NCBI GenBank assembly: GCA_902634885.1 | Contig: CACPLR010000004.1 | Span: 1 to 64,000 of the forward strand | DNA length: 64,000 nucleotides | Source: an uncultured Pelagibacteraceae bacterium | GTDB taxonomy: Bacteria > Pseudomonadota > Alphaproteobacteria > Pelagibacterales > Pelagibacteraceae | Direction: 5' to 3' | Made by a program: the position numbers and the translations under genes | In this document: one piece after another, positions 31,239 through 33,941 of the stretch | Numbering within the stretch: position 1 is the first letter of the stretch | Layout: each line of letters begins with the position of its first letter | The notes under the pieces: generated by a model | Told to the model about the DNA's origin: nothing | The model's database searches: none | The model's input: the letters and a program-made list of their open reading frames with translations, nothing else

Positions 31239-31514
31239 TTAAACGAAAATTCCCTCTTTTTTTAAGAGTTTTTTCTTGGTTTTAATGCCTCCAGGACCCG
31301 AATATCCACCTAGGGACCCGTCAGATCTGATAACTCTATGGCAAGGTATTTTAGGTGCATTTGGGTTTTTTCCAACCGCATTTGCTACAGCTCGAGCAGC
31401 TTTTGGCATATTTATGGCTTTTGCAATCTCTAAATAGGATCTAACTTGACCTTTAGGAATGGTTTTGAGGTGATTCCACACTTTTAACTGAAATTTGGTA
31501 CCTTTTAAGATCAT
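31239..31514 (-). CDS. MGMT-type alkyltransferase, C-terminal domain only
   Basis: A 91-residue stand-alone version of the active domain of O6-alkylguanine-DNA alkyltransferase. It has FQLKVWNHLKTIPKGQVRSY, the RAVANAVGKNPNAPKIPCHRVI core with the acceptor Cys, and SDGSLGGYSG. With the Cys present, repair activity is plausible; such short forms usually lack the N-terminal ribonuclease-like half. The frame stays open upstream to a GTG at 31607, but those 31 codons lie inside a folded RNA element and resemble no protein, so I choose the ATG at 31514. Confidence 0.8.
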   Translation of the reverse strand: MILKGTKFQLKVWNHLKTIPKGQVRSYLEIAKAINMPKAARAVANAVGKNPNAPKIPCHRVIRSDGSLGGYSGPGGIKTKKKLLKKEGIFV

Positions 31515-31516
31515 TT

Positions 31517-31740
31517 TAAAAGAAAACCCTGTTACCTTGTACCTTTTCAGGCACAAAGAACAGTAGTTTTGGCACGTCGTTGTATGCGCTACCGCCATGC
31601 CTTTCACTTCGCTATTTTAGCGCTACTCAGCGAAGTTTTCTGCCCTCTAGGCTTGAATCTCTCGATTTTTCCCTAGATGGTCAGTTAAGAGTTGCCTCTT
31701 AATTCATATTTAATCTATCATATGACCACTTTAGAGGATA
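31517..31740 (-). ncRNA. candidate structured RNA upstream of the alkyltransferase gene
   Basis: This stretch is about 48% G+C over 31561-31680, far above its surroundings, and folds well as minus-strand RNA. Helices: TTAAGAG-GCAA-CTCTTAA (31685-31702) inside an outer GGTCA/TGACC pair (31679-31683 with 31723-31727); TCTAGG/CCTAGA (31646-31651 with 31672-31677) enclosing AATC-GAGA-GATT; an 8-bp stem ACTTCGCT/AGCGAAGT (31606-31613 with 31629-31636); GGCATG/CGTGCC (31571-31576 with 31596-31601); and a long GAAA-capped hairpin (31523-31570). Three loops are GNRA tetraloops on this strand, and helix wobbles are G-U here but would be A-C on the other strand. Two loops can also pair (GCGCTA with TAGCGC). 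I do not recognise the family; the ends are approximate. Confidence 0.65.
31518..31570 (-). terminator. terminator-like hairpin directly before the alkyltransferase start
   Basis: On the minus strand CTGTT and AACAG (5 bp) continue through a one-base bulge into a 10-bp helix (two G-U pairs) capped by GAAA. It is followed by GGTTTTCTTTT, ending 3 bases before the ATG at 31514. Flanking AAAAC/GTTTT can extend the stem. The form fits an intrinsic terminator, either ending the RNA above or acting as an attenuator of the alkyltransferase gene. Confidence 0.55.
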
Positions 31741-31794
31741 TCACTTTATTGTTGAATTTAATGGTTTTTTAACACCTGTGAATAGCGTTAATAA

Positions 31795-32013
31795 CTAACT
31801 TGGCTTCACAATTATTAATATAAAATATGAAACATAAAACAGAACAGTCATGATACCTAAGAAATAAACCTCTATAGATTTGCCATTTTTCTTAAACACT
31901 AAATAAGTAAGCAATGTTAATCCAAAAGAAATAATCAAAAAATATATTGGCTCAATTGAGCCATCCATAGACACCATAGTCATAGATTTTAAACTATTGA
32001 CATTTAAAATCAC
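31795..32013 (-). CDS. small two-helix membrane protein, unknown
   Basis: A 72-residue frame with two hydrophobic helices (about residues 23-40 and 49-68) separated by a short FKKNGKS loop. I recognise no family. The listed start is GTG at 32013; an ATG at 31983 (MTMVSMDGS) would shorten it by ten residues and keep both helices, and no clear ribosome site decides between them. It is divergent from the recombinase gene, with the 35-bp dyad between them, and is followed on its own strand by the folded RNA. It may belong to the same cassette as the recombinase. Confidence 0.5.
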   Translation of the reverse strand: MILNVNSLKSMTMVSMDGSIEPIYFLIISFGLTLLTYLVFKKNGKSIEVYFLGIMTVLFYVSYFILIIVKPS

Positions 32014-32058: not shown

Positions 32059-33012
32059 ATGACTGAATTAACTACAGACCTAAAATTGCTTCATGAGGCA
32101 ACTTTAAATAACCTTAAAAGCTCTAGAGCAAATAACACTTTGAGAGCATATAAATCAGACTTCAAAGATTTTGCAGCTTTTTGTGCAAAACATGTTTTGA
32201 ATTCATTGCCATCAGATCCAAAAATTGTATCTTTATATTTAACCCATCTTTCTAAAAATTCAAAAATTAGCACCTTAAGAAGAAGATTAGTGTCGATTAG
32301 TATGGTGCATAAACTTAAAGGACATTATTTAGATACAAAACATCCGATAATTATTGAAAATTTAATGGGAATAAGAAGGGTAAAAGGAAGCATTCAAAAA
32401 GGAAAAAAACCTTTATTAATTAATAATTTAAAATCGATAATTAACGTAATAGATGAGCAAAAAATTGAAAACATAAAAAAATTTAGAGATAAGTCAATTA
32501 TACTAGTGGGCTTTGGAGGTGGTTTTAGACGAACTGAGCTTATTTCAATTGATTATGAAGATCTAGAATTTGTACCTGAGGGTGTTAAAATCACTATCAG
32601 AAGATCAAAAACTGATCAATTTGGTGAGGGAATGATCAAAGGACTACCCTACTTTACCAATGAAGCCTATTGTCCTGTAGTCAATCTTAAAAATTGGTTA
32701 GAAATTTCTAAAATTAAGTCTGGACCTATATTTAGAAGATTTTCCAAAGGCTTATCTCTAACAGAAAAAAGATTAACCGACCAATCAGTAGTTTTATTAA
32801 TGAAAGAGTATTTAAATTTAGCAGGCATTGAGAATAAAAATTTTGCAGGTCACAGTTTAAGATCTGGTTTTGCAACCGTTGCTGCAGAAGCTGGTGCGGA
32901 TGAACGTAGTATTATGGCAATGACTGGTCACAAAACAACACAAATGGTTAGAAGATACATTAGAGAAGCAAATATATTTAAGAATAATGCTTTAAATAAA
33001 ATTAAAATTTAG
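32059..33012 (+). CDS. tyrosine-type site-specific recombinase/integrase
   Basis: Cuts and rejoins DNA at inverted core sites through a covalent tyrosine link. The 317-residue protein has an N-terminal SAM-like core-binding domain (residues about 15-95, SSRANNTLRAYKSDFKDFAAFC) and a catalytic domain with Arg in GGGFRRTELISI (near 157), Lys in RRSKTDQ, HSLRSGF (HxxR, near 267), GHK in MTGHKTTQ and the nucleophile Tyr in MVRRYIRE (near 302). The set is complete, so it should be active. It does not look like XerC/XerD at the N-terminus. It lies between the folded RNA and the glycosyltransferases; its stop overlaps that of the fucosyltransferase. Confidence 0.88.
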   Translation: MTELTTDLKLLHEATLNNLKSSRANNTLRAYKSDFKDFAAFCAKHVLNSLPSDPKIVSLYLTHLSKNSKISTLRRRLVSISMVHKLKGHYLDTKHPIIIENLMGIRRVKGSIQKGKKPLLINNLKSIINVIDEQKIENIKKFRDKSIILVGFGGGFRRTELISIDYEDLEFVPEGVKITIRRSKTDQFGEGMIKGLPYFTNEAYCPVVNLKNWLEISKIKSGPIFRRFSKGLSLTEKRLTDQSVVLLMKEYLNLAGIENKNFAGHSLRSGFATVAAEAGADERSIMAMTGHKTTQMVRRYIREANIFKNNALNKIKI

Positions 33013-33941
33013 ATTGATATCCAATCTTTAGGCCAAAAATTTTCATTATTTGATGGATTTAAATTAGAAGGCCTAGTACAAATTTTATCCAAATTCTTAT
33101 TTAACCATGCCCCCCACCAGTGAAATGTGGAAGGTCCTACAATAAAATGTTTAGCATATTGAAAAAGATCAAAATCGTTTATTACGTTTTCATTAATTAA
33201 ATGATATTTTTTTATAATTAATCTATTTGATAATTTATCAAAATTTTTGTAGTCGTTAGTCCAAATAAAATATTGTGGATTTTGAACTTTTTTTTCAATA
33301 AAGTTTATTGATCTGTTAATATAATCAATAATTTGATTGGTAAAAAAGTCTGATTTTTCTTTGTTTTTTACTGTATCCGTTAGACCAATTTGATCCGAAA
33401 ACCTATTTCTTCTTATATGAATGGAAATTGAATTATTATTACTTAATTGTTCGACAATAGAGTTTTTGTGATTAATTAATTCTTTTTTAGTTTTAAAAAA
33501 ATTTGATAAATCCTTCTTAAATTCGTTAAAATATTCATAATTTTCAAAGTTTCCTTGAACATAAATGTTATCAGAAAAATTTATTTCTGATAGATTGGTA
33601 TAATTTTGAACTATTTTTAAATTATTTTGTTTTATCGATTTTTCTTTAAAAAAAACTTGCTTATTTGAAAATTTATCAATTAGGATTAATAATTTTTTTT
33701 TTATTTTTTTATGTAATTTGTCGTAAATATATTCTTTCGGAGCATAATTTTGATCAATATTGAACGAGTCTAACATATATTTTTGATGTTTTCTCAAAGT
33801 GTTTTTTTTAAATGAGTAACCGCTTTGATTATCTATAAAAAGCTCATAATTTAGTTTTTTTGCCATTGAATAGGCGTGTGCATACATAAATAACTGATTT
33901 CCCAAACCTTCTGCTATTTCTACAATAATTTTTTTTGTCAT
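33009..33941 (-). CDS. glycosyltransferase family 11 (alpha-1,2-fucosyltransferase type)
   Basis: Likely adds fucose to a surface glycan. The 310-residue protein has the family start IAEGLGNQLFMYAHAYSMAKKLNY, ISIHIRRNRFSD (near residue 174, the HxRR motif of GT11) and GPSTFHWWGAWLNK near residue 271. The HIRRGDY of most members reads HIRRNRF. It is the last of the minus-strand glycosyltransferase genes and is distinctly A+T-rich. Confidence 0.82.
   Translation of the reverse strand: MTKKIIVEIAEGLGNQLFMYAHAYSMAKKLNYELFIDNQSGYSFKKNTLRKHQKYMLDSFNIDQNYAPKEYIYDKLHKKIKKKLLILIDKFSNKQVFFKEKSIKQNNLKIVQNYTNLSEINFSDNIYVQGNFENYEYFNEFKKDLSNFFKTKKELINHKNSIVEQLSNNNSISIHIRRNRFSDQIGLTDTVKNKEKSDFFTNQIIDYINRSINFIEKKVQNPQYFIWTNDYKNFDKLSNRLIIKKYHLINENVINDFDLFQYAKHFIVGPSTFHWWGAWLNKNLDKICTRPSNLNPSNNENFWPKDWISI

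Follow-up and report, generated by a model that had tools for sequence, protein, structure and literature searches.

What is the folded RNA encoded on the minus strand at positions 31517–31740 of the window (the whole 64,000-nt stretch of DNA analyzed here), and does it serve the gene that follows it, travel with the recombinase that precedes it, or act on its own account? The first-pass annotation had placed it between an orphan membrane-protein gene and an alkyltransferase gene, as we also found (Table 1), and had taken it for an unrecognized RNA, possibly a new island-borne RNA or a new leader element. It had proposed an Rfam covariance search as a check and had named a significant match to a known family as the outcome that speaks against newness. 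A cmscan search of the whole window against Rfam 15 gave such a match: minus-strand positions 31709–31569 are a full-length IMES-2 RNA (RF02035; 164.1 bits, E 2.6e-43, gathering score 54.7), which covered all model positions 1–141 with a secondary structure identical to that of the family, and which was the sole non-tRNA match in the window. The RNA at 31517–31740 is a member of an already known family, and its membership held by every feature tested, from the score over the whole model to the preservation of the helices by compensatory change in 116 homologs. A permissive Rfam scan of 31480–31860 yielded three extra matches, each under its own gathering score, and no known riboswitch class above gathering score. 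Neither tmRNA, RNase P RNA, nor SRP RNA was matched in Rfam (for tmRNA, nor by ARAGORN), and the Rfam scan gave no match to 6S RNA (RF00013) at the IMES-2 locus.

SAR11 bacteria are marine and count among the most abundant bacteria of the ocean. The IMES-2 RNA motif was reportedly described by Weinberg and colleagues, in Nature in 2009, from marine environmental sequences, and it has been in Rfam for years; we know of no function for it. Among the matches listed, at least 116 of 118 genome-contig stretches carried Pelagibacteraceae or Pelagibacterales in their titles, and the remaining two had no IMES-2 match. In the available text of the literature searched, no report on IMES-2 was found and the whole word occurred in one squid genome paper; the word IMES was absent from the available part of a structured-RNA survey of P. 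ubique (PMC2704228), and no IMES was named in the accessible portion of a marine transcription-start study (PMC5069720). Relative to the available literature, the present analysis would add a kissing helix, a terminator and a promoter-like region, two genomic places, and co-inheritance with MGMT and mnmA, features that do not make IMES-2 a new kind of system.

Table 1. Features at and around the IMES-2 locus (window positions).
Feature	Position	Strand	Evidence
MGMT-type alkyltransferase gene, directly downstream	31239–31514	−	Pfam PF01035; NCBIfam ogt TIGR00589 above cut-off
IMES-2 transcription unit, ~195 nt, predicted ends	31517–31710	−	Promoter-like site, terminator, fold z −7.2
Putative intrinsic terminator: hairpin 31563–31529 and U-rich tail 31528–31517	31517–31563	−	Covariation
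IMES-2 RNA core, RF02035 positions 1–141	31569–31709	−	cmscan match
Hairpin 4, large conserved loop	31571–31601	−	Two-sided changes in 3/9 pairs
Loop-4 half of proposed kissing helix, UAGCGC	31586–31591	−	Loop covariation
Hairpin 3, large conserved loop	31606–31636	−	Two-sided changes in 8/8 pairs
Loop-3 half of proposed kissing helix, GCGCUA	31618–31623	−	Loop covariation
Hairpin 2, two-part helix, GAAA/CAAG internal loop, GAGA tetraloop	31640–31684	−	Two-sided changes in 9/15 pairs
Hairpin 1, GCAA tetraloop	31685–31702	−	Cells 100% paired; one pair with two-sided change in 35/116
Promoter-like site, GTGATA-16-TATGAT	31717–31744	−	GTGAT conservation upstream
Two adjoining putative DnaA-box-like nonamers, TTATTAACG and CTATTCACA	31777–31794	−	Nonamer search
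ORF for a small membrane protein of 60 aa, located between IMES-2 and the dif-like site	31795–31977	−	Translation
dif-like palindrome beside recombinase start, TTACTAGTGATAATTAATTGTTATCAATAGTAA	32022–32054		Sequence
Tyrosine recombinase	32059–33012	+	Sole PF00589 protein found in assembly (79% complete)

Conserved fold and proposed loop-loop pairing

The minus strand at 31517–31712 folded at −69.8 kcal/mol against a mean of −43.2 kcal/mol for shuffled sequences (z −7.2; 0 of 200 shuffles), in agreement with the strongly folded minus-strand RNA that had been annotated; the plus strand gave z −3.5, likewise with 0 of 200 shuffles. The G+C content was 41.1% at 31517–31740 and 45.4% at 31569–31709, rather than the about 48% first given, compared with 28.0% in the entire window, and only 1.3% of 224-nt windows matched the G+C richness of 31517–31740. 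IMES-2 was found in 178 of 181 loci. Six loci that contained an N or lay too close to a contig end were excluded from the structure set, which comprised 116 distinct cores representing 172 loci (the same contigs often recur among the loci). In these 116 homologs, a 60-pair structure formed standard pairs in 93.2% of 6922 cells, and shifting the partner by 1–3 columns left a pairing of only 33–43%. Changes on both sides were observed in 37 of the 60 pairs (shuffled mean 22.1) and in 526 cells (shuffled mean 122.4), values that 0 of 500 shuffles reached in either case, and RNAalifold alone drew 44 pairs with two-sided change in 27. All five helices of the annotation were present and supported by the homologs, and the covariation check that it had suggested came out in their favor. 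The column pair 118 × 136 (G·A) of hairpin 4 was unpaired in 116/116 homologs, and all three forward frames of the core carried a stop in every one of them. The covariation and the stopped frames support selection on a minus-strand RNA rather than on a protein, as had been proposed. Of the GNRA loops that the annotation had further listed, the GCAA of hairpin 1 and the GAGA of hairpin 2 were conserved among the homologs; the third, GAAA, sits in the terminator hairpin, where its closing pair was U-A in just 50 of 116 homologs.

The motif GUAGCGC is common to the loops of hairpins 3 and 4, and we propose that a sixth helix joins these two loops, a helix that is not drawn in the RF02035 structure line from cmscan. 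It was assessed in an alignment of 134 sequences, namely the 116 distinct cores and 18 from two sister genera; five rows have a gap at the outermost kissing position, and that position was set aside in them. Across the 134 rows, 98.0% of the lettered cells were paired. Two-sided change was found in 6 cells over 3 pairs, against a permuted mean of 0.35 with 0 of 2000 permutations as high, a figure which was obtained by reshuffling the loop-4 rows and which, the rows being related, is not a probability. Both loops had changed in five rows: in four of them (L158, L180, L331, and L332) the two-sided change preserves a pair, two pairs simultaneously in L332, and in the fifth (L177) one kissing pair is gained and another lost. 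Row L158 is also without the outermost kissing pair, at which a U-C mismatch was seen in twelve more of the 134 rows, and two rows had U-U at the innermost pair. Three of the six pairs were invariant, and the outermost was missing in 13 of 116 rows.

Covariation is blind to whether loops 3 and 4 pair within one molecule or between molecules, and it would fit equally well an oligomeric RNA in which this helix links separate molecules into dimers or rings. Other ornate bacterial RNAs are known to oligomerize; GOLLD, ROOL, and OLE RNAs form homo-oligomers, according to the available part of a published study (PMC12286853). The 8-nt self-complementarity of loop 3 was complete in 95 of the 134 rows and incomplete in 39, so that a loop 3–loop 3 dimer is not conserved and is less likely; moreover, hairpins 3 and 4 are adjacent, and their short linker would favor intramolecular pairing. 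An oligomer appears decidedly unlikely to us, and we prefer the reading in which the kissing helix would hold hairpins 3 and 4 together.

The occurrence of the same conserved motif in both large loops also recalls a trans-acting antisense small RNA that would pair with mRNAs through its conserved loops, with GUAGCGC offered twice, and some small RNAs do carry repeated seeds. However, covariation between the two loops suggests that the motif would already be engaged, and apart from these loops the unpaired runs of the core conserved to at least 95% (GCAA, GAAA, GAGA, and AAA) are 4 nt at most, which favors a protein-binding or purely structural role over antisense seeds. Antisense action is possible, though on the unlikely side; with few conserved free bases for such pairing, trans action through the fold, by protein binding, is the most likely mode. 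As a separate observation, loop 4 (31593–31584) and the D arm of a tRNA-Pro (38984–38911) have GGUAGCGCAU in common, which may be chance.

Predicted transcription signals and two genomic places

The GTGAT of the promoter-like site was unchanged in 152/152 aligned upstream regions, 9 of them from the mnmA place described below, and a sister-genus copy (L347) has GTGTT instead. The site itself is modest, with 9 of 12 matches, and 7 equivalents occurred in a 701-nt stretch against 3.6 expected. At the other end, the last of the five hairpins leads into a U run and reads as an intrinsic terminator; this hairpin lies beyond the Rfam model and showed two-sided change in 14 of 15 pairs. At the mnmA place it is swapped for other hairpins, each then followed by a U run, with the core retained. 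A simple terminator scan of the 701-nt stretch listed another hairpin and missed that of IMES-2. The transcript probably extends from about 31710 to 31517, i.e., about 195 nt, both its ends and transcription itself being predicted from these sequence signals.

Further upstream lie the two DnaA-box-like nonamers. The DnaA box consensus is TTATNCACA, and a nonamer with at most 1 mismatch to it occurred at −110 to −60 in 144 of 171 distinct upstream regions (18 exact), which are related and hence not independent counts. Mono-nucleotide shuffles gave an expectation of 6.8%, and two other intervals of the same regions contained such a nonamer in 22/171 and 3/171. In the sister genera the last part of the mnmA reading frame overlaps the putative box, whose conservation there may be partly at the protein level, a cause that is missing at the terminus place. 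DnaA control of IMES-2 is a lead suggested by these counts, not a result.

IMES-2 occupies two genomic places. Where at least 1600 nt of upstream sequence was available, the upstream neighbor was the tyrosine recombinase in 111 of 116 loci, mnmA in 5, and neither in 0; where at least 400 nt was available downstream, 160 of 169 loci had a same-strand MGMT gene as their next gene, and the other 9 were all mnmA-place loci. Homologs of the 60-aa membrane ORF were found upstream in 74 of 175 loci searched. At the mnmA place, IMES-2 lies downstream of mnmA and is followed, as a rule, by an opposite-strand membrane-protein gene. The first set held ten such loci, with mnmA itself visible in nine (L062 was assigned from its downstream side) and the membrane-protein gene missing in one (L054); by its code, only L023 (genome G066) belongs to this genus, the other nine being named contigs. 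Sixty-one of the 62 IMES-2 copies in the genomes searched of this genus lay beside the recombinase and/or MGMT (59 beside both) and one beside mnmA. In two sister genera, sampled as 18 loci out of 48 matching genomes listed for them, all 18 copies were downstream of mnmA, and the membrane-protein gene came next in 17. This comparison, which has no outgroup, suggests that the mnmA place is ancestral and the terminus place derived: the gene probably stood first beside mnmA, and in nearly all IMES-2-bearing members of the genus it would now lie at the chromosome terminus, between the dif-like site and MGMT.

The leader proposed in the annotation would be a cis-acting element or attenuator of MGMT, whose terminator ahead of the MGMT start would be opened by a signal that the RNA senses. 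The frequency with which MGMT comes next on the same strand agrees with this, as does the U run in the window, which stops a few bases ahead of the MGMT start codon. At the mnmA place, however, an opposite-strand gene comes next in 9 of the 10 first-set loci and 17 of the 18 sister-genus loci, and in L054 and L341 the next gene is on the same strand and is not MGMT; the terminator hairpin is replaced wholesale there with the core unharmed, and MGMT occurs without IMES-2 in 25 genomes. Such a leader has, in our judgment, only a slender chance, and leader function does not hold as a general role, since IMES-2, together with signals of its own, has different neighbors in its two locations. A unit of this kind, with a promoter-like region and a terminator, is most simply read as a free RNA.

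The 25 genomes, all of this genus, have the recombinase and MGMT side by side with IMES-2 missing, which suggests that IMES-2 is dispensable. Their gaps measured 172 to 801 nt, including a few flank bases, had 16 to 29% G+C, and by eye contained mostly small membrane-type ORFs and in some cases an acetyltransferase-like or other ORF. A permissive scan of 14 loci (12 of the 25 gaps and two from another family) revealed no other Rfam RNA in the vacant slot, even with E values up to 1. Further, 20 stretches at mnmA (18 from the genus, 2 from the other family; one just 125 nt long) were inspected visually over their first 620 nt, from genomes without a match and from the window's own genome, whose copy is at the terminus, and they revealed no hidden copy. 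The slot beside the dif-like site is variable (e.g., in L182, L183, L199, and L205) and holds membrane-type ORFs, an acetyltransferase-like ORF, or IMES-2.

The neighboring recombinase and inheritance of the locus

With up to 1 mismatch allowed, the core of the palindrome beside the recombinase start occurs only once in this assembly. In the window, cumulative GC skew reaches its maximum at 33880. Three single-contig genomes were sampled over 400 kb apiece, and in all of them the palindromic site was found within about 2 kb of the cumulative skew maximum: the site is at 617608 and the maximum at 615774 in G012; the maximum is at 159091 and the stretch from MGMT to the recombinase at 159164–161118 in G082; and in G207, which bears IMES-2 at 1338870, the site is at 1338533 and the maximum at 1336703. 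Six of eight relatives at least 92% complete had this PF00589 recombinase alone; G082 had a further tyrosine recombinase match in two pieces (G082:C1:11153-11587), and G039 had a different PF00589 recombinase only. Against one consensus, 120 of 162 sites scored 28 or more out of 38, and ten of the remaining 42 were examined and had the form TTCCGATAA-N7-TTATCGGAA or cut versions of it. This second form, palindromic too, pairs with a recombinase 65–66% identical to that of the window (G064, G065, and G073), and in these three matched cases it looks as if recombinase and site had changed together. The recombinase scored below the NCBIfam cut-offs for XerC, XerD, and XerS, and together with the palindrome it probably forms a single-recombinase Xer/dif terminus system. 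This probable SAR11 dif/Xer system runs contrary to a 2009 survey, whose available text states that Pelagibacter ubique has none (PMC2731167). In the open-licence literature, no later report of a SAR11 dif/Xer system was found, including the accessible parts of PMC9765430 and PMC7858055, and Pelagibacter is absent from the main text of PMC3025954. Past the recombinase, the window carries a glycosyltransferase family 11 gene (33009–33941), and the genes on that side are variable in many loci.

Among 200 relatives, 62 carried IMES-2, as did 200 of the 397 genomes of the order, a set that overlaps the 200 relatives; each bearer had one match. The bearers fall into 6 of 13 genera, which all belong to one family, and IMES-2 is not confined to the genus of the window. 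On the MGMT tree, whose gene itself adjoins IMES-2 (60 genomes with and 25 without), presence required 4 changes against 21.8 after shuffling (0 of 500 as low), whereas the recombinase tree, covering 50 genomes with and 25 without IMES-2, gave 21 changes against a shuffled mean of 21.0. In 48 genomes common to all three trees (28 bearing IMES-2 and 20 lacking it), mnmA and MGMT gave 5 and 4 changes, with 0 of 500 shuffles as low, and the recombinase 11, with 8 of 500 as low, at shuffled means of about 15.5. The mnmA sample was the best 30 of 46 positive genomes by score, and the trees have many weak forks, with 44 of 72 inner branches open in that of the recombinase. Clustering of presence is strong on the trees of MGMT and mnmA and, on that of the recombinase, weak or absent, which suggests that IMES-2 was inherited with the core genome while the recombinase side was exchanged more. 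The mnmA-place allele L053 was 98.1% identical to the terminus-place allele L042 over its 5′ half, and at most 62.5% identical to any terminus-place allele over its 3′ half. The mnmA-place alleles L040 and L053 have a mosaic look when set against the terminus-place alleles L122 and L042.

These patterns bear on the annotated island, in which the RNA would be carried and moved by the neighboring recombinase. Presence was random on the larger recombinase tree and clustered on the trees of MGMT and mnmA; genomes without IMES-2 retain the recombinase and its site; this site, close to the maximum of GC skew, fits a chromosomal dif; and all 18 copies sampled from the sister genera lie beside mnmA. 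Phage and plasmid collections contained no IMES-2 homolog, and viral contigs gave one exact 18-mer, yet no IMES-2 match. These results stand against the recombinase's place beside nearly all copies with sufficient upstream sequence, the variable genes past it, some of them glycosyltransferase-like, and the weak clustering on its tree in the 48 genomes, and they leave the island-borne RNA barely credible.

Possible function and comparison with known systems

Our preferred reading, held with evenly balanced confidence, is that IMES-2 is a stand-alone, single-copy RNA gene whose free RNA of about 195 nt would work in trans by means of its fold, with a protein as its probable binding partner. Transcription from a promoter of its own would end at the intrinsic terminator and yield this RNA, whose three-dimensional fold may bind, and perhaps sequester, the protein, and the conserved DnaA-box-like element about 70–85 nt upstream could tie its transcription to replication or the cell cycle. 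In its full form, the proposal of a DnaA-controlled, kissing-loop-locked, protein-binding RNA that links a SAR11 cell function to the replication cycle, with its gene moved, in nearly all bearers within this genus, to the terminus beside an unrecognized single-Xer/dif site, is doubtful; if it were true, copy number and replication timing at the terminus would differ from those at the ancestral mnmA place.

The protein might also be RNA polymerase, with IMES-2 as a 6S-type RNA that stands in for the canonical 6S RNA, which was not detected in these genomes. RF00013, a model that may miss distant 6S RNAs, matched 0 of 22 genus genomes (12 with and 10 without IMES-2) versus 5 of 14 control genomes. 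However, the ten IMES-2-free genomes were equally without a 6S match, so that IMES-2 is not a simple replacement, and four hairpins with a proposed kissing helix do not make the long rod with a central bubble that is 6S RNA. We regard this role as very unlikely, and the protein-binding RNA gene described above remains our preferred reading. IMES-2 can now be studied directly, with likely ends, a testable kissing helix, and a candidate control element at hand, together with natural pairs of presence and absence within one genus and a bearer genome in a single contig (G207); this anatomy makes its function testable.

Among known systems, 6S RNA (RF00013) resembles IMES-2 in being a free, structured RNA of comparable length, with protein binding as a possible mode of action; its fold differs, and IMES-2 gives no RF00013 match. 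The purine riboswitch aptamer is alike in one respect, namely adjacent hairpins joined by a loop-loop helix, as in its P2/P3 architecture; IMES-2 differs in having no enclosing P1 helix and no constant downstream gene, and it is not an Rfam match to that class. Compared with XerS, the SAR11 recombinase falls under the NCBIfam cut-off and is known here from its sequence. As in the XerS/difSL, XerH/difH, and Legionella single-recombinase systems, one recombinase is accompanied by a palindromic A+T-rich site near the skew maximum, and this site adjoins the recombinase gene, as it does in XerS and most XerH systems.
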